Source: Xanthomonas rydalmerensis (lineage in GTDB: Bacteria; Pseudomonadota; Gammaproteobacteria; Xanthomonadales; Xanthomonadaceae). Taken from it: DNA of 64,000 nucleotides. Below are positions 38,545-60,246 of this stretch, in pieces; position 1 is the first letter of the stretch, and every line of letters begins with the position of its first letter. The notes beneath the pieces are model-generated. The model saw only the letters and a list, made by a program, of their open reading frames with translations. It did not search any database and had not been told where the DNA came from. Location of the stretch: assembly GCF_033170385.1 (NCBI RefSeq), contig NZ_CP126170.1, positions 2,442,001 to 2,506,000 on the forward strand. Direction: 5' to 3'. The translations under genes were made by a program, and so were the position numbers.

Positions 38545-38570
38545 GTGCGCTGGTCGCGGCCAAAGGTTGC
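38545..38570 (-). promoter_or_regulatory. Predicted ECF promoter, HprK/ABC operon
   Basis: The reverse strand reads GCAACC, 15 bases, CGCAC, one change from the motif before the ECF gene. It lies 33 bases before the HprK-like ATG. One of six identically spaced copies in 38.5-60.3 kb. Confidence 0.65.
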
Positions 38571-38592
38571 GCCGGCGCCGCCCACGCAGCGC

Positions 38593-38618
38593 GCAACCAA
38601 ACGACGCAGCCCCGGCAC
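38593..38618 (+). promoter_or_regulatory. Predicted ECF promoter, radical-SAM/nucleotidyltransferase operon
   Basis: GCAACC, 15 bases, GGCAC followed by CTACC; both blocks match the sigma-gene copy exactly. It lies 78 bases before the radical-SAM ATG, back-to-back with the HprK promoter. Confidence 0.7.
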
Positions 38619-38696
38619 CTACCGCCACGGCCACCTGCGCGCGGCCATCGCTGCATGCGCCTTCTCCCCCACGGCGCCGAACGAGACCTTTCGCCG

Positions 38697-40205
38697 ATGC
38701 TCAAGATCCAGGTCAGCCACTCCTACTTCCTGCGCTACGACCCCAAGCAATGGGAGCGTGGCAAGCCGTATCCGCCGCTGGCCACGCTGCAGGTGGCGGC
38801 ACTGCTGCGCCAGCACGGACACCAACTGACGCTGTTCGACGCGATGCTCGCCGAGGGTGTGGAAGACTACGACCACGCCGTTCGCACGCAGCGGCCCGAC
38901 CTGGTGGTGTTCTACGAGGACAACTTCAACTTCCTCACCAAGATGTGCCTGAGCCGGATGCGCGAGGCCGCGTGCCGGATGATCGCCGAGGCGCGCGCCG
39001 GCGGCAGTCGGGTGATCGTCGCCGGCTCCGACGCGTCGGATCACCCGGAGGCATTCCTCGCCGCCGGTGCCGACGCGGTGTTGATCGGCGAAGGCATCGC
39101 GGCGTTGCTGGAACTGGTGGCGCGCCTGCAGGCGGAACCGGACATCGACCCGGCGCGCTGGGTGGCCGGCATCGCCGAGGTGGCCAGCGCGGTGTTGCCG
39201 CAACTCAAGCGCGCGCAGATCGGTGCGCGGCCTCCGGATCCGCGGCTGTCGGTGACGGCGGCCTGGGACCTGCTGGACATCGCCCGCTACCGTGCGTTCT
39301 GGCAGCAGCGGCACGGCCATTTCAGCCTGAACATGGCTGCGTCGCGCGGCTGCCCGTTCCGCTGCAACTGGTGCGCCAAGCCGATCTGGGGCAATCACTA
39401 CAAACGCCGCGAGGCGCAGGACGTGGCCGCGGAGATGACCCAGCTCAAGCGCAGCTTCGCGCCCGACCATGTGTGGATGGCCGACGACATCTTCGGCTTC
39501 CACGTCGACTGGGTGGAGGACTTCGCCGACGCGTTGGCTGCCGCCGACGGCGCGGTGCCCTTCACCATCCAGACCCGTGCCGACCTGTGCAGCGAGCGCA
39601 TGACCGCCGCGCTGGCGCGGGCCGGTTGCCGCGAGGCCTGGATCGGCGCGGAGAGCGGCAGCCAGCGCATCCTCGACAAGATGACCAAGGGCACCGACGT
39701 GGACGGCGTGATCGCCGCGCGCCAGCGCCTCGGCGCGCAGGGCATCCGCGTCGGCTTCTTCCTGCAATTGGGCTACCTGGACGAGCAACTGGACGACATC
39801 CTCGCCACCCGCCGACTGGTGGCGCAGGCGCGGCCGGACGACATCGGCGTCAGCGTGTCCTATCCCCTGCCCGGCACCGTGTTCTACCAGCAGGTCAAGG
39901 ACCAGCTCGGGCGCAAGACGCATTGGCAGGACAGCGACGACCTGGCGATGATGTTCCGCGGCGCCTACGACTCGGCGTTCTACCGCCAGGTGCGCGACCT
40001 GCTGCACCGGCAGGTGGACCTGCAATGCCGTGAGGATGCGCGCCCGGCGCCGACGCATGCGCAGGACTGGGTGGCGCTGGACGCCGACTGGGCGGCGTTG
40101 ATCGCGCGCGAGGCGCAGCATCGGACCGAGGCGCCACCAGCGCCGACGGCCAAGGCGGTCGCCGCCGGTGGCAGCCGCCGCATCCCGCTGGTGCAGCGCT
40201 CATGA
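38697..40205 (+). CDS. B12-binding radical SAM enzyme (first of two)
   Basis: A 502-residue protein. The N-terminal Rossmann-like B12-binding domain opens LKIQVSHSYFLRYDP and spans about 1-190. The radical SAM barrel has CPFRCNWC (Cys about 219, 223, 226) for the 4Fe-4S cluster and AWIGAESGSQRILDKM. The class does radical methylations and rearrangements using SAM and cobalamin; the substrate is unknown. I chose the ATG at 38697 as it begins the B12 domain. It overlaps the nucleotidyltransferase by 4 bases. Confidence 0.9.
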   Translation: MLKIQVSHSYFLRYDPKQWERGKPYPPLATLQVAALLRQHGHQLTLFDAMLAEGVEDYDHAVRTQRPDLVVFYEDNFNFLTKMCLSRMREAACRMIAEARAGGSRVIVAGSDASDHPEAFLAAGADAVLIGEGIAALLELVARLQAEPDIDPARWVAGIAEVASAVLPQLKRAQIGARPPDPRLSVTAAWDLLDIARYRAFWQQRHGHFSLNMAASRGCPFRCNWCAKPIWGNHYKRREAQDVAAEMTQLKRSFAPDHVWMADDIFGFHVDWVEDFADALAAADGAVPFTIQTRADLCSERMTAALARAGCREAWIGAESGSQRILDKMTKGTDVDGVIAARQRLGAQGIRVGFFLQLGYLDEQLDDILATRRLVAQARPDDIGVSVSYPLPGTVFYQQVKDQLGRKTHWQDSDDLAMMFRGAYDSAFYRQVRDLLHRQVDLQCREDARPAPTHAQDWVALDADWAALIAREAQHRTEAPPAPTAKAVAAGGSRRIPLVQRS

Positions 40206-41485
40206 GCGACGTGGCGACGCCATCGAATCCGGCCGTGGCGGCCGACCCGCCGGCGGCGGTCCCCACGGCGACGCCGGCACACCTGCCGCTGCGGCGCATC
40301 GGTCGTGGCCTGCGCCTGGCCACCGAAACCTTGGCGCACGAGCTGGCGCGCCCGGGTGCGCCGATGCCGGCCTGGAGCGGCCTGCACTGGCAACTGGCCG
40401 CGGCGGCGGCGGTCGCGCACGGCGTGGCGACGCTGCTGAGCCAGCGCTCGCAGTGGCCCGACCAGCCGTGGCGCGCGTTCCTGGACGGGCAACGCGAGCA
40501 CGTGGCGCATCGCTACCAGCGCATCGCCGCACTGTTGCAGCGGATCGATGCCCTGGCGCAGACCGCCGGCCTGGCGATCGTGCCGCTGAAAGGCGCGGCG
40601 CTGCATGCGCAAGGCCTGTATCGCCCGGGCGACCGCCCGATGGCCGACATCGACCTGCTGGTGCGCCCAGAGGACGCCGAGCGTGCCGCGGCGCTGCTCG
40701 GTGCACTGGGCTACGTGGCCGAGTTCGTGCAATGGAAGCACCAGACCTTCCGCCCGGCACAGGCGCAGGCCGTGCCGGCGCTGGGCGAGCACCGCGACAC
40801 CCCGATCAACATCGAACTGCACGTGCGCATCCAGGAGCGCCTGCCGCTGCGCACGGTCGACCTCGGCGAACGGATCCTGCCGCGCGACGGCAAGCCTGGC
40901 TTGAATCCCTACCCCAGCAACGGCGCGCTGATGAGCCACCTGCTGCTGCATGCGGCCGGCGGGCTGTGCAGCCGCAGCCTGCGGCTGATGCACCTGCACG
41001 ACCTGGCCCTGCTCGCCCCGCGCATGCGCGCCAGCGACTGGCAGGTGCTGACCGGCGCCGATGCCTGGTGGGCATGGTCGCCCTTGCGGCTGATGTTGCG
41101 TTACTACCGCGCGGCGATCCCGTCGGCGGTGCTCAAGCAACTGCGCGCGCAATGCCCGCCGCTGCTGCGGCTGCGCACGCGCGGGCTGGACCTGACCGCG
41201 GCGTCGTGCTCGCAACTGTGGCTACCGGCACTGCCGGGCATCGAGTGGGCGCGTTCGGGCCGCGAGGTGCTGGGCTATCTGCGCCAGCGCCTGCAGCCCT
41301 CTGCGGAAAGCCGGCAGGAACGCGCCGAGATGATCCGCACCCAACTGTGGTTGCAGGGCCAGGACTGGGTACGACTGCCGCAGCGTCGCCGCGTGCTGCA
41401 GCGGCTGCTGCGTCCGGTGCCGCGGATGGACACGCTGTACGTGGTGCGGACCGCACTGCAGGGCTATGCGCCTTCGTCGGATTGA
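40202..41485 (+). CDS. NTP_transf_5-type nucleotidyltransferase
   Basis: A 427-residue protein with the pol-beta-like signature of uncharacterised nucleotidyltransferases: VPLKGAALHAQGLY, GDRPMADIDLLVRPED (metal-binding Asp pair) and INIELHVRIQERLP. Proteins of this family accompany HprK-like kinases in polysaccharide and lasso-peptide clusters; substrates are mostly unknown. Start overlaps the radical SAM stop (ATGA). Last gene of its operon; an extragenic palindrome follows. Confidence 0.83.
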   Translation: MSDVATPSNPAVAADPPAAVPTATPAHLPLRRIGRGLRLATETLAHELARPGAPMPAWSGLHWQLAAAAAVAHGVATLLSQRSQWPDQPWRAFLDGQREHVAHRYQRIAALLQRIDALAQTAGLAIVPLKGAALHAQGLYRPGDRPMADIDLLVRPEDAERAAALLGALGYVAEFVQWKHQTFRPAQAQAVPALGEHRDTPINIELHVRIQERLPLRTVDLGERILPRDGKPGLNPYPSNGALMSHLLLHAAGGLCSRSLRLMHLHDLALLAPRMRASDWQVLTGADAWWAWSPLRLMLRYYRAAIPSAVLKQLRAQCPPLLRLRTRGLDLTAASCSQLWLPALPGIEWARSGREVLGYLRQRLQPSAESRQERAEMIRTQLWLQGQDWVRLPQRRRVLQRLLRPVPRMDTLYVVRTALQGYAPSSD

Positions 41486-41639: not shown

Positions 41640-42776
41640 TCAACCATGCTGCGCGGCGCGCCGGCCATCGGCGTTGCGCGGTGCGCATAGGCGCTGATAC
41701 AGCGCAGTGAAGCCGCGCACGCTGCAATCGGCATCCTCGCGCACGGCCCGGCATTGCGCCGCCCAGGCCAGACGCAGGCGCAGTTCGTCGTCGCTGAGCA
41801 CCTGGCGCAGCGCATCGGCCAGGCCGGCCCAGTCGCCCACCGGCACCGCCAGCGCCGCCGAGGGCGCCCACTCCTGCAGATGCCCGACCGCAGTGCCCAC
41901 CGTCGGCACGCCCGCCACCGCCGCTTCCAGCAATACCAACGGCCCGGCCTCGTGCAGCGACGACAGCACCAGCAGATCCGCCGCCTCCACCAGCGGCCGC
42001 AGTTCGCGCTGGGTCTTGAAGCCGAGGAAGCGCACGTGCTCGCTCAGCCCCAGCGCGGCGACCAGGCGCTGCATCGCGCCGCCGAGGGTGTCCACGCCAA
42101 CCAGGTCGACGCGGAAGTCGACCCCGGCGCGGACCAGCGCGGCGAGTGCGCGCAGCAGGGTCGTCTGGTCCTTGACCGGATTGAGGCTGGCCACGTGCAG
42201 CAGGCGCGCCGGCCCCTCCCCGCGCGCACGCGGCGGGCGCGGCGGCCAGGCGCGCAGGTCCACGCCCAGCGGCACGCGTTCGGCGGCGATGCCCAACGCC
42301 CGCAGGCTGTCGAGGATGGGCGCGCTGGCGGCGGTCACCGCGCTCGCCAGGCGCAACACCAGCGCCTCGCGCAGCCGACCCTGCCATTTGCGCCGGCCGC
42401 CGTAGCCGATGGCATGCAGCGCGACCAGTTCGCCGCCGGCGATGTGGACGAGGCTCGGCCGCCGCAGCCAGCGCGCTGCCGCCACCGCGATCAGGCTGCA
42501 GTGGCCGGAGAACAGCGACTGCACCGCGTCGAACGGTGCGCGACGGTGTTCGGCGCGGATCGCGGCGATCGCGCGCCAGCGCGTGCGCACCGCGCCGATG
42601 TTGTGGATGCGCGCGCCCAGCAGGTCCCATTGCGCCGGCAGCGGCTCCTGGTGCAGCACGAAGACGTGCAAGTCGTGCATGCGTGCCAGGCGTTCGATCA
42701 GGCTCAGGAAGGCCGGAATCACCCGGTACTCGCCGCTGCGGTCGACGCCGCCCGGCACCACCAGGGCCAGCTTCAT
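41640..42776 (-). CDS. Glycosyltransferase family 4-like
   Basis: A 378-residue GT-B glycosyltransferase. N-terminal MKLALVVPGGVDRSGEYRVI, acceptor-domain GGELVALHAIGYGG, C-terminal donor domain RLLHVASLNPVKDQTTLLRA and the EX7E-like SLHEAGPLVLLEAAVAGVP. Transfers a sugar onto a lipid-linked glycan in the cytoplasm. Last gene of the glycan operon. Overlaps the next glycosyltransferase by 4 bases. Confidence 0.93.
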   Translation of the reverse strand: MKLALVVPGGVDRSGEYRVIPAFLSLIERLARMHDLHVFVLHQEPLPAQWDLLGARIHNIGAVRTRWRAIAAIRAEHRRAPFDAVQSLFSGHCSLIAVAAARWLRRPSLVHIAGGELVALHAIGYGGRRKWQGRLREALVLRLASAVTAASAPILDSLRALGIAAERVPLGVDLRAWPPRPPRARGEGPARLLHVASLNPVKDQTTLLRALAALVRAGVDFRVDLVGVDTLGGAMQRLVAALGLSEHVRFLGFKTQRELRPLVEAADLLVLSSLHEAGPLVLLEAAVAGVPTVGTAVGHLQEWAPSAALAVPVGDWAGLADALRQVLSDDELRLRLAWAAQCRAVREDADCSVRGFTALYQRLCAPRNADGRRAAQHG

Positions 42777-43921
42777 GCCGCGCTCCGCGGCGTGGCGCCG
42801 AGCAGCTGCGCATAGGCGCGCGCCCAGCGCCGGCCTACCGCCGCGAACGACAGCTGCGCATCGAAATGCGCGCGCACCATCGCCCGCGACGGCCCGTCGC
42901 GCGAGGCCTGCAGCAGCGTGGCCGTCAGGCGCTCGGCGTCGCCGCAGGGCCACAGCGCGCCGACCCGGCCGCCATCGCTGAGCGCACGGAACGCGGGGAT
43001 GTCGGTCAGCACCGGCACCGCGCCGCAGGCATAGGCCTCCAGCGCGGCGTAGCCGCAACTCTCGGCCAGGCTGCCGGATACGAACAGGTCGGCCGCACGC
43101 ATCAGGGTCTGGATCTGCGCGTGCGCCACCCGGCCCAGCAGGTGCACGCGGCCGGCCAGCCGCGGATCGGCCTGGATGCGCTGCTGCACCACCGGCAGCA
43201 GCGGCGCATCGCCGAACGCGCAGAACAGTTGCAGCTCGGGCAACTGCACGCTGGCGCGCGCCACGCCTTCGAGGACGGTGAGCGGATCCTTGCCCTCGCT
43301 CAGATGGCCGACCCACAGCACACAGGGCGCGCCGTGCAGTCCGCTGTCGCGGCGCGCCTGGTCGCGCTCGCCGGGAGTGAAGCGGCAACTGGATTCGGGA
43401 ATGGCGAACAGCCGCGTGGATCCGGCGAACAGCCCGGCACCCACGAAGCCGCGCGCCAGGCCCAGCGAGGTGAAGGCGATGCCGGCGGCGGCCGCATACC
43501 AGCGTCGCCACTGCGGCCGCCGCCACCAGCGCGGCGGACGGTTGGCGTGGTCCTGCAGGAGGATCGGCAGCGACGGCCGCCAGCGCGCCAGCGTCGCCGC
43601 CTCGCGCGCGAACTGCAGGCCGTGCACGTGCACCACGTCGGCATCGAGCTCGGCCAGCAACGCGGCGATGCGCCGCAGGTGGCGCCGGCGTCCGGCGTCG
43701 GCGCGACGCACGAAGTGATAGTCGACGCCGTTGCGCCGCAGCTGTGCATCGACCGCAGCGGCCTGGATCACCGAGACGCGGGTGCCGGCGCTGGCCACGG
43801 CCTCGGCGATGTCGGCCAGCGATGGCCACAGCGCGAAGGCCTGCTCCGGCGTCACTCCGTCCGGCAGCGGCACGAAGTTGAGCTGCACGGCGTGTACGGC
43901 GCGGGGGACGTTGTCGGCCAT
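42773..43921 (-). CDS. Glycosyltransferase family 4-like
   Basis: A 382-residue GT-B enzyme. Donor domain PCVLWVGHLSEGKDPLTVLEG and the E-motif GSLAESCGYAALEAYACGAVP. The N-terminal domain includes ADVVHVHGLQFAREA. I chose the ATG at 43921, two bases after the radical SAM stop. It acts on the same glycan as its neighbour. Confidence 0.92.
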   Translation of the reverse strand: MADNVPRAVHAVQLNFVPLPDGVTPEQAFALWPSLADIAEAVASAGTRVSVIQAAAVDAQLRRNGVDYHFVRRADAGRRRHLRRIAALLAELDADVVHVHGLQFAREAATLARWRPSLPILLQDHANRPPRWWRRPQWRRWYAAAAGIAFTSLGLARGFVGAGLFAGSTRLFAIPESSCRFTPGERDQARRDSGLHGAPCVLWVGHLSEGKDPLTVLEGVARASVQLPELQLFCAFGDAPLLPVVQQRIQADPRLAGRVHLLGRVAHAQIQTLMRAADLFVSGSLAESCGYAALEAYACGAVPVLTDIPAFRALSDGGRVGALWPCGDAERLTATLLQASRDGPSRAMVRAHFDAQLSFAAVGRRWARAYAQLLGATPRSAA

Positions 43922-43923: not shown

Positions 43924-45462
43924 TCAGATCCCGGACGCCTGCGGCCGGTGCAGGCGCACCAGCCGGTTGGCCAGGTTCAGCTCCCACGGCCGGTCGTAGC
44001 GCCGGTAGCGGTAGCGCCACGCGGCCAGGGCGCTGAGACCACGCTTGGCCCAGCCCGGCGAACGCGGGTCCTGCGCGGTGGGATAGCGGCAGCCGAGCAC
44101 GGTGACGAAATCGCGGATGCGCTGGCGCAGCGCATCGGTGAGCCAGGGCGCATCGGCGTGGCAGGCGTAGTCCACCCACTGCGGCTGCGCCCACTCCTCC
44201 GGCGTGCGCGGGAACTGCACCGGCACGCCGTCGCGGTCGAGCAAGGGCATGCCGGCGCGGCGGCCGCGATCCTTCTCGTGGCGGCTGCTTTCCGGCAACG
44301 GGGTGTACACGTAGACGATGATTTCCGACTGCGGGTTGATCCGCTTCAGCTCGCGGATGAACTCGAAGGTCTGCTCGGTCTCGCGCTCGCTGTCCTGCGG
44401 CGGCGCGACCATGAACGACAATTCCGGGATCACCCCATTGCGCCGGCACAGCTCGGCCACTTCCAGGGTCTGGTCCGGGCGCGTGCCCTTGCGGATCTCC
44501 TTGAGCATCGCCCCGCTCGGCGACTCGGCACCGATGTAGGCCATGCGCAGGCGGCTCTTGCGCACCAGTTTCCAGGTGCTCTCGGACAGGTTGAGCAACG
44601 CGTCGGCGCGCGCGTAGCACCACCACGGCATTTCCAGCTTCGCCATCACCTCCAGTAGCGGGATCATGTCGGCTTCGCGGTCGAAGAAGTTGTGGTCGAA
44701 GAACTGGATCGAGTCGGCGCCCAGGCCGTACTTCAGATAGCCCAGCTCGCGCTCCAGGCGTGCCGCGGTCGGCAAGGCGGTGGCGCCGCCGAACATCGCC
44801 GCCACCCCGCAGAACGTGCAGCGGAAGCGGCAGCCCAGCGCGGCCTGGTGCGAGGCGGTGCGCTGGCCGAGGAAGGTGCGGCCGAGATAGCGACGCGGCT
44901 CGCCGAGTTTTTCGTAGGGCAGCGACGGCAGTGCATCGCCGCGCTGGAAGGCGCGGTTGCGGTTGTGCACCACGGCGCCGTCATGTTTCCAGGACAGCCC
45001 GTCGACCTGCGCCAGCGTCGGCCCCTCGCCTCGCAAGGCGGCCAGCAGTTCCGGCAAGGTGTCCTCGCCCTGCGCGCGGATCGCGTAGTCCACGTACGGC
45101 GCGGCCAGCGCGGTGTCCGGGTACAGCGTGGGGAAATAGCCGCCCCAGACGATCGGCAGCGCCGGGAAGCGCGCGCGGATGGCCTGCGACAGCGCGATCG
45201 ACGGCGCCAGCTGCGGCCCGCCCATCACGCTGATGCCGACCGCATCGAAGTGCTGCTCCTGCAGCGCCTGCAGGCTGCGGTCGATGAAGTCGCGGTCGAC
45301 GTTGCCGTCGATGATGCGGCTGTCGCCGTGGCGGTCCAGCGCCGCCGCCAGGTTCAGCAGCGACAGCGGAAAGCGGGCGCTGGACGGCTTGGTGATGGTG
45401 GGATTGACCAGCAGCGTGTTGGGTGTGGAGGACACACGGGGCGAACGCAGGACGGGGGTCAC
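43924..45462 (-). CDS. B12-binding radical SAM enzyme (second of two)
   Basis: A 512-residue enzyme. The B12 domain starts LLVNPTITKPSSARFPLSLL and includes IVWGGYFPTLYP. The radical SAM barrel has CRFRCTFC (Cys about 211, 215, 218) and YIGAESPSGAMLKEIRKGT. Similar enzymes perform C-methylation or ring chemistry on lipids, sugars or antibiotics. The start is GTG at 45462, overlapping the methyltransferase stop (GTGA). Within a glycan operon it may modify a sugar or the lipid carrier (inference). Confidence 0.9.
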   Translation of the reverse strand: MTPVLRSPRVSSTPNTLLVNPTITKPSSARFPLSLLNLAAALDRHGDSRIIDGNVDRDFIDRSLQALQEQHFDAVGISVMGGPQLAPSIALSQAIRARFPALPIVWGGYFPTLYPDTALAAPYVDYAIRAQGEDTLPELLAALRGEGPTLAQVDGLSWKHDGAVVHNRNRAFQRGDALPSLPYEKLGEPRRYLGRTFLGQRTASHQAALGCRFRCTFCGVAAMFGGATALPTAARLERELGYLKYGLGADSIQFFDHNFFDREADMIPLLEVMAKLEMPWWCYARADALLNLSESTWKLVRKSRLRMAYIGAESPSGAMLKEIRKGTRPDQTLEVAELCRRNGVIPELSFMVAPPQDSERETEQTFEFIRELKRINPQSEIIVYVYTPLPESSRHEKDRGRRAGMPLLDRDGVPVQFPRTPEEWAQPQWVDYACHADAPWLTDALRQRIRDFVTVLGCRYPTAQDPRSPGWAKRGLSALAAWRYRYRRYDRPWELNLANRLVRLHRPQASGI

Positions 45463-46154
45463 GGCAGGCGCCGCAGGCGCAGCACCAGGGCCACCGGCAC
45501 CTGCAATGCAGCGGGATCGAAATGGGCGCCGGCGGGAATGTCCGCCGGGTCGAGCATCGGTTCGCTGACCGCGTCGATGGCCAGCCCCAGCGCGGCGCAG
45601 GCGGCGTGCCAGTGGCTGTACAGGTGCTGGGTGTGGCGCACCGCGTAGCGCTGACCGCCGGCCTTGAAGTCGCGGCGCCAGCCCAGCGCCGGGCCGATCG
45701 GGTGCACGTCGCTGCACAGCACCCAGCCGCCGGGCCGGGTGACGCGGCGCAGTTCCGCCAGCGCGGGCGGCAACTGCGGCAGGTGCCCCAGCGCCAGCGC
45801 GCAGAGGCTCAGGTCCACGCTGGCATCGGCGAGCGGCAAGGCCTCGAGGCTGCCTTCTTGCAAGGTGCAGCGGCCGGCGTCGGCATCAGCCAGTTCCTGC
45901 GCGGCGCGCGCCAGCATCTGCGGCGACAGGTCCACGCCGGTGACGTGCTCTGCGCCACGCTGCAGGGCATGCAGCAGGTAGCGGCCGCTGCCACAGCCGG
46001 CATCGAGCACGTGCTGGCCGCGCAACGATTGCGGCAGCAAGGCCAGCATGGCGCGCTGCTCGGCCTGCATCACCGGGTTATGCGCCTGCGCCGGGTAGCT
46101 GTCCGCCCACAGGGCGTAGGCGGCGAGCGGATCGAGGGTCGGGACTGCGCTCAT
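45459..46154 (-). CDS. Class I SAM-dependent methyltransferase
   Basis: A 231-residue methyltransferase. Motif I VLDAGCGSGRYLLHAL, acidic loop VTGVDLSPQML, post-motif RVTRPGGWVLCSDVHP. I chose the ATG at 46154 because it overlaps the amidohydrolase stop by 4 bases (ATGA). Probably decorates a glycan intermediate. Confidence 0.9.
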   Translation of the reverse strand: MSAVPTLDPLAAYALWADSYPAQAHNPVMQAEQRAMLALLPQSLRGQHVLDAGCGSGRYLLHALQRGAEHVTGVDLSPQMLARAAQELADADAGRCTLQEGSLEALPLADASVDLSLCALALGHLPQLPPALAELRRVTRPGGWVLCSDVHPIGPALGWRRDFKAGGQRYAVRHTQHLYSHWHAACAALGLAIDAVSEPMLDPADIPAGAHFDPAALQVPVALVLRLRRLP

Positions 46155-48240: not shown

Positions 48241-48301
48241 CTCTCCACTCCCCTGCCCTCGTCGGAATCCGCGCGTATCGAGCGCGCGGTACTGCAGGTA
48301 G

Positions 48302-51298: not shown

Positions 51299-52551
51299 CA
51301 GCCCAGTCCTCGCAGGTAGCGGCGCACCACCAGCACGTTGAACGCCAGGTACAGCGCGTAGTTGCAGGCGAACGCATAGGCCGCGCCGATCAGGCCCATG
51401 TGCGCGGTGAACAGCACCACCAGGCCCAGGTAGCTGGCGGCGAAAAAGCATTCGGAGAGCACGAACAGCCGCGTCATCGCCTTGGCCAGCATCAGGTAGG
51501 ACAGCACGAAGGAGGCGATCTTGAGCACGTCGCCGAGCAGCTGCGGCGCATACAGCGGCAACGCGGCGGCAAAATGGGCCGAGAACAGCAGCCGGGTGAT
51601 CCAGTCGCGGCACAGGTACACCGTAGCCGCGGCCAGGATCACCGCCGGCAGCACGTAGCGGTAGGCGCCACGCAGTTCCTGCAGCAGCGCGGTGCGCGTG
51701 TGCAGCGCCGCCAGCTTGGGCAGGTAGTGGACGTTGATGGCGGTGGTGAAGAACAGCAGGTAGGCATCGGAGACACGGCTCACCGCCTGCCAATAGCCGA
51801 CCTGCTGCCAGCCGAGCTGGCCGGCCAGATGATCGCGCACGCCGATGTTGACCAGCAGCGGCAGCAGCGCCGAGGCCAGGGTCATCGCGGAGAAGGCGGC
51901 CAGCCGCCGCACCATCGCCGGGTCGAAGCGGATGCGCAGCATCTCGCGGCGGAAGTACGGGCTGCGCCGCAGCGCCGGTACCCCGGCGCACAGCCAGGCG
52001 ACCTGCCCCAGCACCAGGCCCAACAGCGCCCCATACAGGCCCATGCCGTGCGCCAGCGCCGCCACCAGCAGCACGCTCAGCACCGCGCCGGCGACCTGGA
52101 TCAAGGCCAGCCGGCGCACGTCCATGAAGCCATTGACCACCGCCAGGATGTAGTTGGCCAGCGCAATCCCGAGCTGCGCCACCGCCAGCACGCAGATCAG
52201 CGGCTGGTACTGCGCGTCGCCGAGCAGGCGCTCGGCGATCAGGCGACTGCACAGCAGTGCGGCCACGCCCATCGCGCACGCTGCGACGCAGGCATAGCCC
52301 AAGGCGCTTCCCAGCAGCCGGGTCAGCGACTGCGCATCGTCGCGGTACTCGGCCACGTACTTGACCACGCCGGCACCGATGCCGCCCCCGGCCACGACCG
52401 CCAGCAGCGACATCAGGCTGGTGAACTGGCCGAGCCGGGCGACCCCGGACGGCCCGGCGTACACCGCCACCAGCTTGAGCACCAGCAACGCGGACAGCAG
52501 CTTGGCCGCGGTGGCCACGCCGCTGTACACGCCGCTGCGCAGCACGTTCAT
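51298..52551 (-). CDS. wzx: Wzx-type lipid-linked oligosaccharide flippase
   Basis: A 417-residue polytopic protein (about 12 helices) of the MOP superfamily, closest in look to WzxE. N-terminal [21 protein letters not shown] and [12 protein letters not shown] are family features. It flips undecaprenyl-linked repeat units to the periplasm for the Wzy-like polymerase. Overlaps the aminotransferase by 4 bases. Confidence 0.92.
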
Positions 52552-53678
52552 GCCGCCACGCCACCGAAACGCCGGCAGGCGTCGATCACCTGCGCGACCG
52601 CCGCGTCGTCCAGGGTCGGGCCGATCGGCAGACTGAGCACCTCGGCAGCCAACCGCTCGCACAGCGGCAACTGCAGCGTCGCCAGTTCCGGATAGGCCGG
52701 CTGCCGATGCGGCGGCGTCGGGTAATGCACCAGGCACTGCACGCCCTGGGCCTGCAGATGCTGTTGCAGCGCATCGCGCTGTGCGCAGCGCACCACGAAC
52801 AGGTGCCAGGCGTGCGCCGCCGGGTCGGCCACCTGCGGCACTGCGATCCGCGGATGCGCGATGCCATCGAGGTATCGCTGGGCGATCGCGCGGCGCGCGG
52901 CGATGTCGGCATCCAGATGGCGCAGCTTGACCCGCAACAGCGCCGCCTGCAGTTCGTCCAGGCGCGAGTTCACGCCCTGCACCAGATGCCGGTACTTGAT
53001 GTCCGAGCCGTAGTTGCGCAGCACGCGTAGCTGCGTCGCCAGCGCGTCGTCGTCGGTGGTCACCGCGCCGCCGTCGCCGAGCGCGCCCAGGTTCTTGCCG
53101 GGGAAGAAACTGAAACCGGCGGCATCGCCGAAGCTACCGGCAGGGCGGCCGTCGCGGCGTGCGCCATGCGCCTGCGCCGCGTCCTCGAGCAGGAGTAGGC
53201 CATGCTGCTCGGCAATGCTGCGCAACGCGGCCATCTCCGCAAGTTGCCCATACAGGTGCACCGCCAGGATCGCCTTGGTGCGCGGGCCGATCGCCCGTTC
53301 CACCTGCGCCGGATCCAAGTTGAAGCTGGCCGCGTCCGGCTCCAGCGGCACCGGTCGCAGCCGGTTCTCGCTGATCGCCAGGAAGCTGGCGATGAAGGTA
53401 TTGCCCGGCACCAGCACCTCGTCGCCTTCGCGCAGCCGGCCGAGTGCGCGGTAGCCGCGCAGGATCAGGGTCAGCGCGTCCATGCCGTTGCCGACGCCGA
53501 TGGCATGGGCGGTGCCGCAGTAGGCGGCGAACTCGCGCTCGAACGCGTCCAGTTCCTCGCCGAGCACGTACCACCCGGAATCGATCACCCTCGCCGCGGC
53601 GGCCTTGAGCTCGTCGGCATAGCGCGCATTGCTGGCGCGCAGGTCGAGGAACGGCACGCTGCCCGCTGGCAGGTTCAT
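52548..53678 (-). CDS. PLP sugar aminotransferase (DegT/FdtB-like)
   Basis: A 376-residue DegT/DnrJ/EryC1 enzyme. [17 protein letters not shown] at the start, GNGMDALTL, Asp of the PLP-ring contact in [13 protein letters not shown], and the PLP lysine in [14 protein letters not shown] (about 195). With the FdtA-like isomerase and NeuD-like acetyltransferase it would make dTDP-3-acetamido-3,6-dideoxyhexose (Fuc3NAc or Qui3NAc; the sequence cannot say which). Confidence 0.92.
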
Positions 53679-54610
53679 TGCAATTCCCAATGGTAGAAAT
53701 CGTGGACCACGGCGCGTGCGCCGAAGCGCTCCTTCTGCTCGACCAGGCCGGCATTGAGCACCTGGCCCTGCTGCTCGGTGGAAATGCCCAGGCTGAGGAA
53801 CTCGCGCTGCGCGTAGACCTGCTCGATCAGTTCGGCCAGCAGCAGGCTCAGCGCATCGGCGCGGCGGCCCTGCTCCGAGCAGGCCAGGTATTGGGTATGG
53901 ACGACGTGGCCGAAGTCGTACACCAGCGTGCCGGCCAGCAGGTCGGCACCGTCGCGCACTTCGTAGGGCACGATCTGCGCCGGAAAGCGCGCGCACAGCA
54001 GGCGCAGTTCGTCCAGGCTGTGGGTCGGGCGCGCGCCGTGGCGTTGCAGTACCTCGCCCAGCAGCGTATGCAGCGGCGCCGGATCGTCTGCCCGTTGCAC
54101 GCGCAGCCCGGCGCGGCGTGCCTTGGCGACCGAGCGCTTGCGTGCGGCGGCGAAGCGCGGCGGTTCGCGTAAGGGCACCGCCGAGGACAGGTCGCGGCGC
54201 TGCAGGCGCGCGCCGAGCCGGTGCAGCGCGTACAGGTCCTCTTCCGCCGGACTGCGATGAAACAGATGCGGCACCGCCTTGTACAGCAGCGTGCGCACGC
54301 CGGTGTCGCGATAATGCGCGGCGATGCGCTCGAACGCCTCCAGCGTCGCCGTCGCACGCAGCGCGTGGGTCGACACCAAGCCGGCATAGCTGAGGCCGGC
54401 ATGGCTGGTCACCGCGTCGCCATCGCGGTTGGCCGGAAACACCGCCACCGGCGCGCCGGCGTCCTCGACCAACAACGAAGCATCGACGAAGCGTGCAGCG
54501 TGATAGTCCATGTAGCCACGCCGGTGCAGCAGATTGCCGTTGCGCGAGGCGTCCACCACGGCATCCCATGCCGGCGCGTCGGTCGCGGTATACGCCCTAA
54601 CCGACAGCAT
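53675..54610 (-). CDS. GNAT/FemAB-like acyltransferase
   Basis: A 311-residue protein. N-terminal [19 protein letters not shown] and central [19 protein letters not shown] are typical of GNAT proteins in polysaccharide loci. The C-terminal half, [18 protein letters not shown], matches the acceptor strand. Probably acylates or aminoacylates a sugar. Overlaps both neighbours. Confidence 0.85.
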
Positions 54611-55556
54611 CGCCGTCCTCCCACACCATGCCGGCGGGCAAGTCCGCCTCGGCCACGCCGAACCCGTCGCGGCCCATGTCGTTGCCGTTGTAGAACAGCA
54701 GCAGGCGCTCGCCGTGGCGGATCAGCGCCGGATAGCACAGCGTGTGTGCGTCCCAGCCCTGCGCCGACAGCGGCAGGCCCAACGCCGCGTCGCAGCGCTG
54801 CCAGTGGCGGCCGTCGTCGCTGACCGCCATGCCGGGCAGATAGGCGCCGTCGCGACTGCCATGGGTGAAATACATCAGATAGCGGCCATCGTGCCGGTAC
54901 ACCCGCGGGCGGCCGATACGGTACTCGTCGCCCTGCGGCTGCAGGCAGACCGTGTCCTGACGCGAGATCGCCTGCAGGTCGTCGGTCTCCACGCAACGGA
55001 TGTGGTAGCGCGGGTACGGCGTGCCGCCGATCCATTCCCAGTCGTCCCCCACTGCGTACCACAGCTGCCAGCGGCGATTCTCGTAACGCGCCGAATGCAC
55101 CGCGGCGATGGTGCTGCGGCCCGGCGCGCGGTCCAGCAGCGGCGTGTCCTGGCGGCGCTGGAACGTGTCGCCGCCATCGGTGGAGACCGCCAGGCCGGTA
55201 AAGGCCAGGAACTTGGCCCGCGCCACCTGCTGGAAGCCGACATAGAACATGTACAGGCCGTCCGGCCCATGCACCACGTCGCCGAGGATCATGCCGTTGT
55301 CGTCGAAGCAGCCGGCGCGACCGATGTCCAGCACCGGTGCGGCGCTGATGCCGAGCACCTGGGTAGGATCGTCGGCGCGCACGTCCACGTAGCCGATGCG
55401 GCTGACCCCGGCATCGTCGCGGAAGCCAGCGTAGATCCGCAGTCGCTCGGCATCCAGCCGCAGCGGGGTCGGCGTCAGCGCCGAATGCCGCATCCAGCCG
55501 CCGACGCCGTCGCGCGCGGTGTCGAACACCAATCCGCGTTTGTGCCAGGCGAACAT
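54597..55556 (-). CDS. Five-bladed beta-propeller glycosidase-like protein
   Basis: A 319-residue protein of the GH43/GH32/GH130 fold. Repeats such as GDVVHGPDGLYMFYVGFQ, GRPRVYRHDGRYLMYFTHGS and LCYPALIRHGERLLLFYNGN form the propeller blades. No signal peptide, so cytoplasmic, unusual for a polymer hydrolase. May act on a nucleotide or lipid-linked sugar or be a phosphorylase. I chose the ATG at 55556. Confidence 0.8.
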   Translation of the reverse strand: MFAWHKRGLVFDTARDGVGGWMRHSALTPTPLRLDAERLRIYAGFRDDAGVSRIGYVDVRADDPTQVLGISAAPVLDIGRAGCFDDNGMILGDVVHGPDGLYMFYVGFQQVARAKFLAFTGLAVSTDGGDTFQRRQDTPLLDRAPGRSTIAAVHSARYENRRWQLWYAVGDDWEWIGGTPYPRYHIRCVETDDLQAISRQDTVCLQPQGDEYRIGRPRVYRHDGRYLMYFTHGSRDGAYLPGMAVSDDGRHWQRCDAALGLPLSAQGWDAHTLCYPALIRHGERLLLFYNGNDMGRDGFGVAEADLPAGMVWEDGDAVG

Positions 55557-55561: not shown

Positions 55562-56227
55562 TCACAGGTCCACGTCGAAGCTGGACTTGCCGGCCACCGC
55601 CCGAGCCGGCGCACCGACGTAGACGCGTCCGGGTTCGGTGTCGCGGGTCAGCAGCGCACCGGCGCCGATGACGTTGTCGGCGGCGACCTTGACCCGGTCG
55701 CTGAGCGTGGCGTTGACCCCGATGAAGCTGCTCGCGCCGATCTCGCAGTAGCCGGAAATCACCGCGTGCGAGGCCACGAATACGTGGTCGTGGATCGTCG
55801 TGCGGTGGCCGACGTGGTTGCCGCTCCACAGGATGCAGTTGGCACCGATGCGGGTGAACGGCTGCAGCACGTTGTGCTCGAACACGAAGCAGTGCTCGCC
55901 CAGTTCCACGTTGCGCCAGACGAAGGCGTGCGAGCTGACGTAGCTGGCCATGCGGTAGCCGCGGCGCTTGGCGTCCAGATAGAACCGCGTGCGTAGCCGG
56001 TTGAGTCCGCTGGCGGGGATCGCCACGAACGCCTCCACCTGCGACGGCGGATATCGCTGTTCGAGCTCCTCGTAGGCCACCACCGGCAGGCCGGCCAGGG
56101 TCGGCGCGGACAGGTAGTCGCGCTCCACGCTGAAGGCCAGCACCTCGTAGTCGCTGTCGTGGGTGAAGTATTCGCAGGCGATCTGCGCCAGTTCGCCGGC
56201 GCCGACGATGACCAGGGGACGCGCCAT
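55562..56227 (-). CDS. NeuD/PglD-family sugar N-acetyltransferase (FdtC-like)
   Basis: A 221-residue enzyme. N-terminal Rossmann strand LVIVGAGELAQIACEYF, then a left-handed beta-helix of hexapeptide repeats (FTRIGANCILWSGNHVGHRTT shortened here) and a closing GRVYVGAPARAV. Catalytic His likely in NHVGH. Acetylates the 3-amino sugar made by the aminotransferase. Three bases from the FdtA-like gene. Confidence 0.9.
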   Translation of the reverse strand: MARPLVIVGAGELAQIACEYFTHDSDYEVLAFSVERDYLSAPTLAGLPVVAYEELEQRYPPSQVEAFVAIPASGLNRLRTRFYLDAKRRGYRMASYVSSHAFVWRNVELGEHCFVFEHNVLQPFTRIGANCILWSGNHVGHRTTIHDHVFVASHAVISGYCEIGASSFIGVNATLSDRVKVAADNVIGAGALLTRDTEPGRVYVGAPARAVAGKSSFDVDL

Positions 56228-56230
56228 GAG

Positions 56231-56647
56231 CTACGCCTCCTGCCGGCGCATGCCCGCCGCTTCGCGCAGGAACTCGTCGTAGTCGAAGATGTAGTCGGTG
56301 GGGTCGTAGGCCTGGTCGGCGAGCACCATCAGCACGCAGTCCGCGCTGAAGTCGTAGAGATCGCGCCAGACCATGCTGCCGAGCAGCAGGCCCTGCCGCG
56401 GATCGTCCAGCACCACCTGCGTCGGACCGCTGCCGTCGTCGAGCAGGAACGACACCGAACCGTGCAACGCCACCGCCAGCTGGTTGAGATGGCGGTGCGC
56501 ATGCTGGCCGCGGTGCACGCCGTTGCGGGTGGCGAACAGGTAGTACACGCGGCGGATGTCGAAAGGCACGTCGCGCTGTTGCTCCAGCGCCACGAGCTGG
56601 CCGCGCGCGTCGCCGTGCGTCCGCAACTGGATTCGTTCGATTGCCAT
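56231..56647 (-). CDS. fdtA: dTDP-4-oxo-6-deoxyglucose 3,4-ketoisomerase-like cupin (FdtA/QdtA)
   Basis: A 138-residue cupin. DARGQLVALEQQRDVPFDIRR, then the His motif GVHRGQHAHRHLNQL and SVSFLLDDG are the FdtA/WxcM-C signature. Converts dTDP-4-keto-6-deoxyglucose to the 3-keto sugar ahead of transamination. First gene of the 15-gene glycan operon; its predicted ECF promoter starts 42 bases upstream. Confidence 0.93.
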   Translation of the reverse strand: MAIERIQLRTHGDARGQLVALEQQRDVPFDIRRVYYLFATRNGVHRGQHAHRHLNQLAVALHGSVSFLLDDGSGPTQVVLDDPRQGLLLGSMVWRDLYDFSADCVLMVLADQAYDPTDYIFDYDEFLREAAGMRRQEA

Positions 56648-56689
56648 CAGAGTGCCCGACCGGGCTCCACATCGGAGTGTCCAGGCTGA

Positions 56690-56715
56690 GTGCCGCGGGT
56701 CCGCGGAAAGGTTGC
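56690..56715 (-). promoter_or_regulatory. Predicted ECF promoter of the glycan operon
   Basis: The reverse strand reads GCAACC-TTTC, 11 more bases, GGCAC; both blocks match the sigma-gene copy exactly. It ends 42 bases before fdtA and lies back-to-back with the redox-operon promoter. Confidence 0.75.
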
Positions 56716-56738: not shown

Positions 56739-56764
56739 GCAACCTTTCGCCGCAGCGCCGGCAC
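56739..56764 (+). promoter_or_regulatory. Predicted ECF promoter of the redox operon
   Basis: GCAACC-TTTC, 11 more bases, GGCAC, identical in both blocks and spacing to the sigma-gene copy. It lies 86 bases before the cytochrome b561 ATG. Confidence 0.78.
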
Positions 56765-56850
56765 CCATCGACGACCACCGCTGCAGCGATGCCCCGCCGG
56801 CATCACGCCGCGCCCCTGCCTCGTCGCCCCCAAGGACACCGCGTACCGCC

Positions 56851-57438
56851 ATGACCTCACCCACGCCGGCCGCTCCGAAACCGCCCGTTTCCCCTCCTGC
56901 CGCGTCGGCGGCATTGCCGCGGCCGATGGTGTGGCTGCACTGGCTCACCGTGCTGTGCCTGGTGCTGGCGGCGGGGCTGATCCTGCTGCGCGAAGAGGTC
57001 GACGGCCGCATGTGGCGGCAGTGGCTGCTGGAAGGCCACCGCCACTTCGGCCTGTTCGTGCTGGGCCTGTTCTGCCTGCGCGTCGCGCTGCGGATGCGCC
57101 TGGGCAAGCGCCACGACCCGGAGGCCGGCTCGGCGCTGATGCGTTTGCTGGCCGGCGCCACCCACGTGGTGATGTACGCGCTGCTGCTGACCCTGCCGGT
57201 GCTGGGCTGGGCGCTGAGTCAATCGATGGGCAAGCCGGTGCATCTGTTCGGCGCGACCCTGCCCGAGCTGGTCGCGCCCGATCCCGATCTCGCCGACAGC
57301 TTGGGCGCCTGGCACGTGGACGCGGCCTGGCTGCTGCTCGGCCTGATCCTGCTGCACATCGGCGCGGCGCTGTGGCACCACCTCGTGCGCCGCGACGCCG
57401 TGCTGCAACGCATGGTGCCGTTCCTGCGCCGCCGCTGA
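56851..57438 (+). CDS. Cytochrome b561-family membrane protein
   Basis: A 195-residue protein with four membrane helices. Haem-ligand candidates are H30 (WLHWLTVL), H63/H65 (EGHRHFG), H105 (GATHVVMY), H155 and H169 (LLLHIGAALWHH), the YodB/CybB pattern. Passes electrons across or within the inner membrane, usually from quinol to periplasmic acceptors. AAGGAC lies before the ATG. First gene of the redox operon. Confidence 0.92.
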   Translation: MTSPTPAAPKPPVSPPAASAALPRPMVWLHWLTVLCLVLAAGLILLREEVDGRMWRQWLLEGHRHFGLFVLGLFCLRVALRMRLGKRHDPEAGSALMRLLAGATHVVMYALLLTLPVLGWALSQSMGKPVHLFGATLPELVAPDPDLADSLGAWHVDAAWLLLGLILLHIGAALWHHLVRRDAVLQRMVPFLRRR

Positions 57439-57505: not shown

Positions 57506-58870
57506 ATGCACCAGGCCCCGTCGTCCCCCTCCACCTCCTCCCGCAGCGACAGGACGCGCGGCACCGAGCAGGCGCTGCTGTGGTCGGCGCTGGGCTCGCT
57601 GCTGCTGGTGCTGAGCCCACGCGCCGCCGCGGTGCCGGCGTTCGCGCGGCAGACCGGCTCGTCCTGCGCCGACTGCCACATCGGCGCCTACGGCCCGGCA
57701 CTGACCCCGTACGGCATGCGCTTCAAGCTCGGCGGCTACACCGACAGCGACGGCAACGGCACCAAGATCCCGGCCTCCGCGCAGCTCACCGCCAACCGCA
57801 GCGTGCCGGCGCGCGGCGAGAGCCGCACCCGCTTCAGCGAGGCCGACCTGTACCTGGCCGGGCGCATCACCGACAACGTCGGCGGCTACGTCAAGGTCGC
57901 CACCACCAACAACGGCAAGAACGACTACACCACGCGCCTGGACAACGTCGACCTGCGCGCAGTGGTCAAGAGCTTCCAGCTCGGCGGCAGGGACACCCTG
58001 CTCGGCGTCAGCGTCAACAACAATCCCGGCAGCCAGGACCCGATCGGCATGCTGCCCAACGCCTCCGGGCTGGGCCCGGCCTCGGCCTATTCCAGTTCGA
58101 CCACCCTGCTCAACCAATCCTCGCTGTCCAACCGGGTGATCGGCACCAGCGTCTACGGCCTGTACGACCGCAACTGGTACGGCGAAGTCGGCACCTACAC
58201 CGCCCTGCCGGTCTCGACCCAGGACGACCTCGGCTACGCCATCGGCGGCGATCCCGGCAAGCTCAGCGACACCGGCTACCTGCGCCTGAGCTACATGAAG
58301 GACCTCAAGCGCCAGTTCTTCTCCGCCGGCGTGGTCGCACTGACCACGCGCCGGCAGTTGCCGCGCAGCACCGGCCCGCGCGACGACTTCACCGATCTGG
58401 GCTACGACCTCAACTACCAGTTCCTTGGCACCCGCGAGCACATCCTCAAGCTCGGCTACCTCAACATCTACGAGCGCCGCCGCTACGGCAGCGCGCTGAT
58501 CGACCCGACCGACCCGGCCCTGGCCGGCCCGCGCCGGGCCAGCGTGCGCGACCAGTCGATCAGCCTCAACTACACCTACAAGCAGAGCTACAGCCTGCTG
58601 CTGGCGCACTTCATCAACACCGGCTCGGACGATCCGTTCCGCTACCGCCCGTACGGCGCGCCGGACACCACCAGCAACCTGATCAGCGCCTCGTGGGCGC
58701 CGTTCGGCAAGGACGACAGCTATTCGTCTATCTCCAACCTGCGCCTGTCCGCGACCTGGTTCCGTTTCAGCAAGTTCAACGGCAGCACCGGCAACGTGTT
58801 CGGCGCTACCCCGGTCACTCGCCCGCGCGACCTCAACCAGTTCGCGCTGAGCCTGAGCCTGGCCTTTTGA
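57506..58870 (+). CDS. Outer-membrane fused cytochrome-porin (Cyc2-like)
   Basis: A 454-residue protein. Signal region (about 22-43), then a short haem domain PAFARQTGSSCADCH (Cys54, Cys57, His58) leading into ALTPYGMRFKLGGYT, and about 350 residues of alternating amphipathic strands ending in Phe (LSLSLAF), an outer-membrane barrel signature. One haem plugged into a porin of about this size is the Cyc2 layout, known for iron oxidation in other bacteria. The electron source or sink here is unknown. Lies between cytochrome b561 and a periplasmic cytochrome c. Confidence 0.8.
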   Translation: MHQAPSSPSTSSRSDRTRGTEQALLWSALGSLLLVLSPRAAAVPAFARQTGSSCADCHIGAYGPALTPYGMRFKLGGYTDSDGNGTKIPASAQLTANRSVPARGESRTRFSEADLYLAGRITDNVGGYVKVATTNNGKNDYTTRLDNVDLRAVVKSFQLGGRDTLLGVSVNNNPGSQDPIGMLPNASGLGPASAYSSSTTLLNQSSLSNRVIGTSVYGLYDRNWYGEVGTYTALPVSTQDDLGYAIGGDPGKLSDTGYLRLSYMKDLKRQFFSAGVVALTTRRQLPRSTGPRDDFTDLGYDLNYQFLGTREHILKLGYLNIYERRRYGSALIDPTDPALAGPRRASVRDQSISLNYTYKQSYSLLLAHFINTGSDDPFRYRPYGAPDTTSNLISASWAPFGKDDSYSSISNLRLSATWFRFSKFNGSTGNVFGATPVTRPRDLNQFALSLSLAF

Positions 58871-58893: not shown

Positions 58894-59289
58894 ATGAAAC
58901 GCACCAATGCCCTCCCCCTGTGCACCCTGCTGGCCGGCCTGCTGCCGCTGGCCGCCGCGGTGGCGCCGTCCGCGCATGCCGCCGGCGGCGCGCCCGGCGC
59001 CGGCGTGTTCGCCAGCGAATGCGCCGAATGCCACAGCGCCGCACCGGCCAAGAACAAGAAGGGCCCGACCCTGTTCGGCGTGGTCGGGCGCCGCGCCGGC
59101 AGCGTGCCGGACTACGCCTATTCCGACGCGATGAAGCAGAGCCAGTGGACCTGGAGCGACGACAAGCTGCGCAGCTACCTGTCGCAACCGGCATCCAAGG
59201 CCCTGCCCGGCGGCAAGATGAAGTACGACGGACTGGACGATCCAAAGCAGTTGCAGGACCTGATCGCCTACCTGCACAGCCTGCATTGA
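58894..59289 (+). CDS. Periplasmic class I cytochrome c
   Basis: A 131-residue protein. Signal ends SAHAAGG, haem site CAECH (Cys43, Cys46, His47), the NKKGPTLFGVVGRRAG loop and the axial Met (about 109) in GGKMKYDGL: a small c-type electron shuttle. Ribosome site CGGAGC upstream. 23 bases after the cytochrome-porin, whose haem it could reduce or oxidise in the periplasm. Confidence 0.95.
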   Translation: MKRTNALPLCTLLAGLLPLAAAVAPSAHAAGGAPGAGVFASECAECHSAAPAKNKKGPTLFGVVGRRAGSVPDYAYSDAMKQSQWTWSDDKLRSYLSQPASKALPGGKMKYDGLDDPKQLQDLIAYLHSLH

Positions 59290-59460
59290 ACTCGCTGCCC
59301 GATCGGGTCATATTCGGCGCCCCACGGGCCGGCCGTCGCGTCGCGCCCGTGCCCGATTCCTGACCTGCGAGCACCGAGCCACCGTGCGTGTTTTCCCTGC
59401 CGTCCGCGGCGCTTCGTCGCTGCTGCCCGCCGCTACCCAGCGCTGCGGGGCGGGCCGCGC

Positions 59461-60213
59461 ATGCTGAACGCGCACGCGGTCCCGCCGAGCGCCGCATCCC
59501 GGCGGTCAGTGCATCCAGGCGTCGGCGCGGCCCTGGCCGTGGGCCTTGCGCTCGCCGCCCTGCACGCGCCGGCGGCAATGGCCGGCGACGTCGGCGGTGC
59601 CGCCGGGATCAGCTCGCAACTGGTCGATCGCGGCATCGCCGTGACCCGCAGCACCCCGACCCTGCAGGGCGCGCTGTTCTGGCTGCCGGCGCCGGGCTGG
59701 TCGCTGAGCGGCTCGGCCAGCGTGGCACTGGACGCGCCGGGCAAGGTGTTGATGGGCAGCGCCGGCCTGTCGCGCGGCTGGACCCTGTCCGACAACTGGC
59801 AACTGCAGGCCGAAGCGCTGCTGTACCGCTACCCCGGCCGGCGTGTCGACCGTCCGTTCAACCGCGACGAGCTCAGCCTGGGCTGGAGCTACCGCGACCG
59901 CCTGAGCCTGTCGCTGGCCGCGTTCCGCCTGCCCGACAGCGGCCTGCGCCAGCGCTGGTACGGCGCGCTCGACCTCACCGCGCACCAGCCGCTCCACGGC
60001 GCGCTGTCGCTGTCGGCCGGGGTCGGCGTCAGCCAGGCGCCGCCGGCCCTGTACGGACTGGAGTACGTGGCGCACTATCGCTACGGCCACGCCGGGCTGA
60101 TCTGGAACGCCGGGCGCTGGAGCGTGGAGGTGGACCGCATGTTCAACGACACCCACGGCGGCGCGAACCACGGGATCTGGCCCTGGGTGGCCAGCGTCTC
60201 CCGCAGCTTCTGA
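59461..60213 (+). CDS. Outer-membrane-type beta-strand protein
   Basis: A 250-residue secreted protein (signal ends AAMAGD). Many short amphipathic strands with Tyr/Trp girdles (WSYRDRLSLSLAAFRL) and a terminal Phe (SVSRSF), predicting a small barrel. The opening SSQLVDRGIAVTRSTPTLQG resembles the Gcw_chp-type family, tentatively. It follows cytochrome c by 171 gene-free bases and precedes the ECF promoter. Confidence 0.72.
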   Translation: MLNAHAVPPSAASRRSVHPGVGAALAVGLALAALHAPAAMAGDVGGAAGISSQLVDRGIAVTRSTPTLQGALFWLPAPGWSLSGSASVALDAPGKVLMGSAGLSRGWTLSDNWQLQAEALLYRYPGRRVDRPFNRDELSLGWSYRDRLSLSLAAFRLPDSGLRQRWYGALDLTAHQPLHGALSLSAGVGVSQAPPALYGLEYVAHYRYGHAGLIWNAGRWSVEVDRMFNDTHGGANHGIWPWVASVSRSF

Positions 60214-60220
60214 TCCGAGC

Positions 60221-60246
60221 GCAACCTTTCCGTGCCGCCCCGGCAC
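60221..60246 (+). promoter_or_regulatory. Predicted autoregulatory ECF promoter of the sigma gene
   Basis: GCAACC-TTTC, 11 more bases, GGCAC, 30 bases before the sigma-factor ATG. It is the reference copy for the motif shared by six sites. The AAC in the first block is the usual core of ECF -35 elements. Confidence 0.75.

Follow-up and report, generated by a model that had tools for sequence, protein, structure and literature searches.

Are the redox and surface-glycan genes that lie beside an extracytoplasmic function (ECF) sigma factor gene in Xanthomonas rydalmerensis all governed by that one sigma factor? We addressed this question in a window of 64,000 nucleotides, the whole stretch of DNA analysed here (G000:C1:2442001-2506000), which belongs to a 5.04-Mb genome of one contig. 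A preliminary description had noticed six copies of the motif GCAACC-N15-GGCAC in the window and, through them, had placed the entire locus under one sigma factor. Sequence comparison strongly supports the six sites as directional promoters of a single ECF sigma factor, and their targets as an ECF regulon. The attribution to one sigma factor is upheld by the fixed gap between the two blocks of the motif, by its recurrence upstream of the corresponding genes in other genera, and by its near-confinement to genomes that carry the sigma gene.

Six promoter-like sites

The six sites, each recovered by a weight matrix, are listed with the number of loci in which a site precedes the same gene.

60221..60249, plus strand: site before the sigma operon, GCAACCTTT-N12-GGCAC-ATA (75/79 loci)
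56739..56767, plus strand: site before the cytochrome b561 operon (60/61 loci)
56687..56715, minus strand: site before fdtA and the glycan operon (61/63 loci)
48299..48327, minus strand: site in the glycan-operon gap, before the methyltransferase gene MT1, TCAACCAAA variant (8/9 loci)
38593..38621, plus strand: site before a B12-binding radical SAM gene
38542..38570, minus strand: site before the HprK-like kinase gene

A pattern search of the window found all six where they had been reported, with exact copies of GCAACC-N15-GGCAC at 60221 (+), 56739 (+), 56690 (−) and 38593 (+), one mismatch at 38545 (−) and two at 48302 (−). The spacing is 15 in 6/6 sites, and the reported distance of 30 to 86 bases to a start codon was likewise reproduced (sigma 30, b561 86, fdtA 42, radical SAM 78, HprK-like 33, MT1 61). 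Gene starts were assigned by reading frames; that of MT1 is a GTG at 48240, and the 48302 site is located between this codon and the Wzz gene (48343). The statement that the window holds no other spaced pair did not stand, as further one-mismatch matches occur at 37288, 50395, 50435 and 51588.

Beyond the two blocks, the six sites have two more features in common: GCAACC is followed by an A/T triplet, and an A stands three bases past GCAC. This gives the fuller motif GCAACCWWW-N12-SGCACNYA, with the consensus GCAACCTTT-N12-SGCACNYA. Searched genome-wide without mismatch, KCAACCWWW-N12-SGCACNY returned exactly the six sites and none outside the locus; one mismatch added five other places in the genome, and the reversed control gave 10 within one mismatch. 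This pattern was derived from the six sites, and independent tests were therefore sought.

For these tests we used 80 loci around relatives of the sigma gene, the best 80 of 139, which range from Xanthomonas to Burkholderiales. A relaxed pattern gave 195 matches in them versus 16 for its reversed form, with no match in five of the 80 (L097, L105, L111, L113 and L115). In 194 matches, 16 bases separate CAACC from GCAC, the other gap lengths between 8 and 27 each accounting for 1 to 22 matches, whereas the reversed control has 0 at gap 16 and at most 13 at other gaps. The A at the third base past GCAC, which had not been used in selecting the sites, is present in 98% of 181 of them. A matrix built from 90 sites of loci L069-L107, none from Xanthomonas, ranked the six sites first to sixth in the window (33.7, 32.3, 29.3, 22.6, 19.3 and 15.7 bits), the seventh place scoring 1.1.

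Upstream regions were then scanned over 300 nucleotides per gene with a matrix built on the window's own six sites, a score above 15 being counted as a site. Sites precede the sigma, fdtA, b561 and MT1 genes in the proportions of loci listed above, at median distances of 28, 43, 134 and 40 nucleotides, respectively, while only one of 466 upstream regions of eight non-target genes, torF counted among them, passes (16.2; 99th percentile 12.3). This background replaced an initial threshold of 25.3 taken from random pieces, which undercounted (sigma 40/79, fdtA 16/63, b561 10/61, MT1 0/9) because the random pieces themselves held true sites. Within the 300 nucleotides scanned, no site above 15 precedes the sigma gene in L087, L111, L115 and L116; L087 has a relaxed match at 9670, beyond that range. 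Both loci missed for fdtA (L083 and L085) are from Luteibacter and have a spacer one base longer between the blocks. A site also precedes the HprK-like gene, which stands back to back with the radical SAM gene, in L121, L122, L123, L134 and L136; among the matches listed, a pair of sites between these two genes recurs in relatives. No site of its own was found for torF (78 upstream regions, none above 15 and one above 10), which is therefore likely transcribed with its upstream genes.

At the resolution of the bare consensus the counts are mixed. Two-mismatch matches to the bare consensus number 59 in the window versus 55.1 expected, and 31 of 100 shuffles reach 59; allowing one mismatch, GCAACC-N15-SGCAC has 485 matches in the genome versus 766 for the reversed pattern, and the bare consensus was discarded as a statistical test. 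Exact GCAACC-N15-GGCAC occurs six times in the whole genome, four of them within the locus, and the reversed pattern eight times. The two-mismatch count in the window is at chance level, and the case cannot rest on the bare consensus, which is especially weak for the two-mismatch site at 48302. The non-Xanthomonas matrix leaves a similar reservation: since the best score in 100 Markov-random 64-kb sequences averaged 7.8 and reached 19.0, the 48302 site (15.7) is insecure by score alone and the 38593 site (19.3) barely secure. The 48302 site is supported by comparison, as sites with an AAA or AAT triplet precede the same methyltransferase gene elsewhere; a site is present in 8/9 loci, with TCAACC in 8/9 rows and TCAACCAAA in 5/9. 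The leading T is not universal, two further Xanthomonas loci (L048 and L063) having GCAACCAAA before MT1. Chance as an explanation of the six sites is ruled out by the fixed gap, the non-Xanthomonas matrix, the upstream scans and the presence/absence comparison described below.

Gene content and distribution of the locus

The sites flank the following genes, of which those named HprK-like, TorF-like and GH130-like owe their names to matches below cut-off.

59461..60213, plus strand: TorF-like putative porin (TIGR02001, E 1.1e-07, 31.7 bits, below the cut-off of 47.15)
58894..59289, plus strand: class I cytochrome c (PF00034)
57506..58870, plus strand: 454-amino-acid protein, annotated as cytochrome C in relatives, with a single CXXCH in its N-terminal part; its porin part is only a guess
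56851..57438, plus strand: cytochrome b561 (PF01292)
56231..56647, minus strand: FdtA-like sugar isomerase, first gene of the glycan operon (PF05523)
55562..56227, minus strand: NeuD-type sugar acetyltransferase (TIGR03570)
54597..55556, minus strand: weakly GH130-like protein (NF052550, E 5e-06, far below cut-off)
53675..54610, minus strand: GNAT or FemAB-like acyltransferase
52548..53678, minus strand: DegT sugar aminotransferase (PF01041)
51298..52551, minus strand: Wzx-type flippase (PF01943)
50357..51298, minus strand: family 2 glycosyltransferase (PF00535)
49194..50360, minus strand: probable Wzy polymerase, from position and hydrophobicity, with no Pfam or NCBIfam match
48343..49197, minus strand: Wzz chain-length protein (PF02706)
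47386..48240, minus strand: methyltransferase MT1
46151..47383, minus strand: amidohydrolase (PF01979)
45459..46163, minus strand: methyltransferase MT2
43924..45435, minus strand: B12-binding radical SAM protein 1, with a GTG start
41640..43921, minus strand: two group-1 glycosyltransferases
40202..41485, plus strand: NTP_transf_5 nucleotidyltransferase (PF14907)
38697..40205, plus strand: B12-binding radical SAM protein 2
37450..38511, minus strand: HprK-like kinase (PF07475, weak, below cut-off)
35623..37350, minus strand: ABC exporter

FdtA, DegT and acetyltransferase enzymes form an established sugar pathway, and the predicted product of these genes is a glycan of the Wzx/Wzz type that contains a 3-amino-3,6-dideoxyhexose-like sugar. 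The glycan genes adjoin those for b561, the CXXCH protein and the class I cytochrome c. A Cyc2-like role for the 454-amino-acid protein was considered and dropped, as it has no Pfam, NCBIfam or PDB match. For the HprK-like, NTP_transf_5 and radical SAM genes, a RiPP-type role was among the readings weighed.

We compared 50 genomes, comprising all 35 with a sigma match of at least 67% identity plus 15 of the 217 in which no match was found. Exact sites number 196 in the 35 sigma-carrying genomes (reversed 57), a count that includes strays beyond the locus, and 1 in the 15 without sigma (reversed 10); at least one is present in 34/35 and 1/15 genomes, respectively. Three genomes of the same genus that lack the sigma gene have none. 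Thirteen genomes reached through the loci hold 37 exact sites versus 3 reversed, some of them beyond the locus. The HprK-like gene and the sigma gene lie at opposite ends of the locus; 33/35 sigma-carrying genomes have the HprK-like gene and 0/15 of the others do, so that in most cases the locus is either retained whole or missing altogether. There are exceptions. G226, whose coordinates are those of the X. albilineans locus L041, keeps the sigma and cytochrome genes and has no HprK-like gene; G265 has two exact sites, neither near the sigma gene, and no HprK-like gene; and the genome search found no exact site in G168, which carries the sigma gene. In L041 a minus-strand site remains at 6399, glycan genes beside b561 not being detected, and it is apparently an orphan promoter. 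Among the matches listed, a GCAACCATCGA-type stray recurs in several genomes of a second Xanthomonas group, and a GCAACCATCGAAGGCC-type match, probably a conserved coding stretch, lies beyond the locus in G017, G231, G243, G265 and others of that group.

Across the 80 loci we detected the sigma gene in 80, the anti-sigma gene in 80, the S8 protease gene in 79 (the contig ends in the remaining one), the TorF-like gene in 78, fdtA in 63 and b561 in 61; CcmC was detected in Xanthomonas loci only (32/80). The sigma protein shares 99% identity with its counterpart in Xanthomonas sp. NCPPB 1128, and the anti-sigma protein 95% with one assigned to Xanthomonas sacchari, which places the present genome near X. 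sacchari. Cytochrome and glycan modules adjoin sigma genes in Xanthomonas, Dyella, Luteibacter, Rhodanobacter and relatives; in L103 and L107 (Rhodanobacteraceae) the operon adjoining the sigma gene starts at MT1, with a TCAACC-type site. In the Burkholderiales loci L109-L116 the modules went undetected, apart from one weak radical SAM match in L115. In L109 (Acidovorax) and L114 (Paracidovorax) the window genes detected were limited to torF, sigma, anti-sigma and S8, and a site still precedes the sigma gene there. Eight neighbouring open reading frames (ORFs) scanned in L109 and L110 belong to unrelated families or to none.

Other genes are preceded by sites in some relatives. In one Rhodanobacter genome (L143, 1501-2278), a site lies before an AhpC/TSA peroxiredoxin gene encoding a signal-like N-terminus, with an HprK-like gene and its own site nearby; this peroxiredoxin fits a redox theme. 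In Acidovorax L128 and Paracidovorax L129 the sole exact site besides that of sigma lies at 1501 and precedes a similar lipoprotein-like ORF, which belongs to the TIGR03118 family in L129, the only one of the two scanned. In one Paucibacter genome the two exact sites (L130 and L120, both at 1501) lie before a lipoprotein-like ORF with CXXCH and before an ORF resembling a small membrane protein, which hints at other targets there, again on a redox theme.

The sigma factor and its predicted lock

The sigma operon encodes the following proteins, all on the plus strand.

60277..60858, plus strand: ECF sigma factor with regions 2 and 4 (Pfam); among solved structures, E. coli sigma-E (1or7) is closest to it in sequence
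60858..61499, plus strand: anti-sigma factor with an HX3CX2C domain, one predicted transmembrane helix and a C-terminal beta-alpha-beta-beta-alpha-beta domain that resembles a subtilase propeptide
61496..62821, plus strand: S8 subtilase with its own propeptide-like N-terminal domain (Pfam, alignment, model and Foldseek)
62832..63638, plus strand: CcmC (NCBIfam TIGR01191), 10 nucleotides past the protease gene

With PF04542 and PF08281 in 193 amino acids and no region 3 match, the sigma factor has the architecture of the ECF type (group 4). It shows two further marks of that type: an adjacent anti-sigma gene (80/80 loci), which overlaps the sigma stop codon in the window and presumably encodes the cognate factor, and a promoter class of its own with AAC in the −35 element. 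The anti-sigma factor carries HX3CX2C in a modelled N-terminal helical domain, as zinc-binding class I anti-sigma factors do, with H38, C42 and C45 invariant in 14/14 aligned sequences. The protease belongs to S8 (PF00082; triad D199, H232 and S382 invariant in 11/11 aligned), and pro-subtilisin E is the best Foldseek hit of its model (E 1.8e-17). Cysteines C112, C265 and C277 are also invariant in the 11 aligned proteases, one of them within the propeptide. CcmC and a short ORF lie directly 3′ of the protease gene (62832-63847).

The periplasmic domain of the anti-sigma factor is predicted by modelling to fold like a subtilase propeptide, with the topology of solved propeptides. Its profile matches that of the neighbouring protease propeptide collinearly, at 33.4 versus at most 20.0 in 200 shuffles, and subtilase prodomains occupy 7 of the top 9 rows of a structure search with the modelled domain, although they are of two kinds only, PC1/3 and Bacillus subtilisins. 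Two points limit this assignment: unrelated ferredoxin-like folds tie with the prodomains within 1 Z, and structure searches alone do not prove propeptide likeness; the model may represent another ferredoxin-like family. The anti-sigma protein has no Pfam match at E <= 0.001, Inhibitor_I9 included, and for this reason the domain is not filed under that family.

From these elements we propose the following mechanism. The six sites are likely −35/−10 promoters for the sigma factor of 60277-60858, which would target its own operon, the cytochrome operon, both halves of the glycan operon, and the HprK-like/ABC and radical SAM units. The adjacent anti-sigma factor is predicted to hold the sigma factor; in this prediction its HX3CX2C domain lies in the cytoplasm, a single helix crosses the membrane, and a domain of propeptide fold lies in the periplasm. 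The S8 protease would dock on this last domain in the way it does on its own propeptide; a signal from the envelope, presumably a redox signal, would free or activate the protease, which would make a periplasmic cut in the anti-sigma factor, and further proteolysis would release sigma. Released sigma would then raise its own operon, lock and key together, along with the redox and glycan genes, in a positive feedback. We hold this account as a whole, from sigma promoters through anti-sigma lock to S8 release, to be probable. Its boldest element is tentative, and our judgement falls slightly on the doubting side: that the anti-sigma domain is a decoy of the S8 propeptide, by which the protease is both recruited to and checked by an inhibitor copy within its target, competition between propeptides timing the switch-on of redox and glycan genes.

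The same parts could be connected otherwise. The propeptide-like domain may be an inhibitor that silences S8 until some other factor removes the anti-sigma factor, the protease then being an output of the regulon and not its trigger. That 79/80 loci carry an S8 gene within the sigma operon fits a regulator better but is not decisive, and we consider this arrangement unlikely while still giving it weight. Somewhat more doubtful is that the periplasmic domain is a ferredoxin-like sensor unrelated to the protease; the proximity of other ferredoxin-like folds in the structure search is set against the collinear profile match and the prodomains heading that search. That the sites instead bind a conventional activator or repressor is very improbable: fixed spacing and positions alone would fit a dimeric regulator as well as a sigma factor, but the motif is asymmetric and oriented toward the gene, its −35 block resembles GGAACTT and has AACCTTT in common with the sigma-W box given in PMC8103513, the sites are almost confined to sigma-carrying genomes, and a site precedes sigma itself where only torF, sigma, anti-sigma and S8 remain (L109 and L114).

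Known systems and biological meaning

The RpoE-RseA-DegS system of E. coli is the canonical case of an ECF sigma factor, a membrane anti-sigma factor and regulated proteolysis. The locus resembles it in its ECF sigma factor (1or7, E 2.7e-16), the adjacent membrane anti-sigma factor, the site before its own operon and the AAC-type −35 element. It departs from it in that the trigger protease would be an S8 subtilase and not a PDZ serine protease, in the resemblance of the anti-sigma periplasmic domain to a protease propeptide, and in the −10 element, here SGCACNYA. The SigW-RsiW system of B. subtilis differs in −10 element, site-1 protease and target genes. The two systems share AACCTTT in the −35 element, which for SigW is ATTGAAACCTTT according to PMC8103513. 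Among PDB sequences, RsiW (5wuq) also gives the anti-sigma profile its best match, though not a significant one (E 0.094). A subtilase adjoins the ECF sigma factor in some ECF groups, such as ECF54 (PMC8999054); the present locus is alike in this respect and differs in having an anti-sigma factor. The predicted fold and topology of the C-terminal domain recall subtilase propeptides and POIA1-type inhibitors, whereas here the domain ends a membrane anti-sigma factor and lacks a Pfam Inhibitor_I9 match. In the portions of the literature consulted, including PMC8999054, PMC8103513 and PMC7406223, we found no description of this sigma factor, its motif or a propeptide-like anti-sigma factor, and the ECF reclassification may already list the group and motif. 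ECF regulons with autoregulation are already known; what sets this one apart is its motif, the genes it comprises and the propeptide-like domain of its anti-sigma factor.

Comparison alone yields a regulon map of one motif, one sigma factor and one locus in several genera. The coupling of surface-glycan genes with cytochromes, and with a peroxiredoxin in one Rhodanobacter genome, suggests that a redox signal in the envelope is at work. This coupling to redox genes makes the purpose of the glycan testable. A propeptide-like anti-sigma domain would offer a simple, checkable route by which a protease recognises its regulatory target. If true, the decoy would represent a novel and conserved mode of ECF sigma factor control, extending from Xanthomonas as far as the Burkholderiales.

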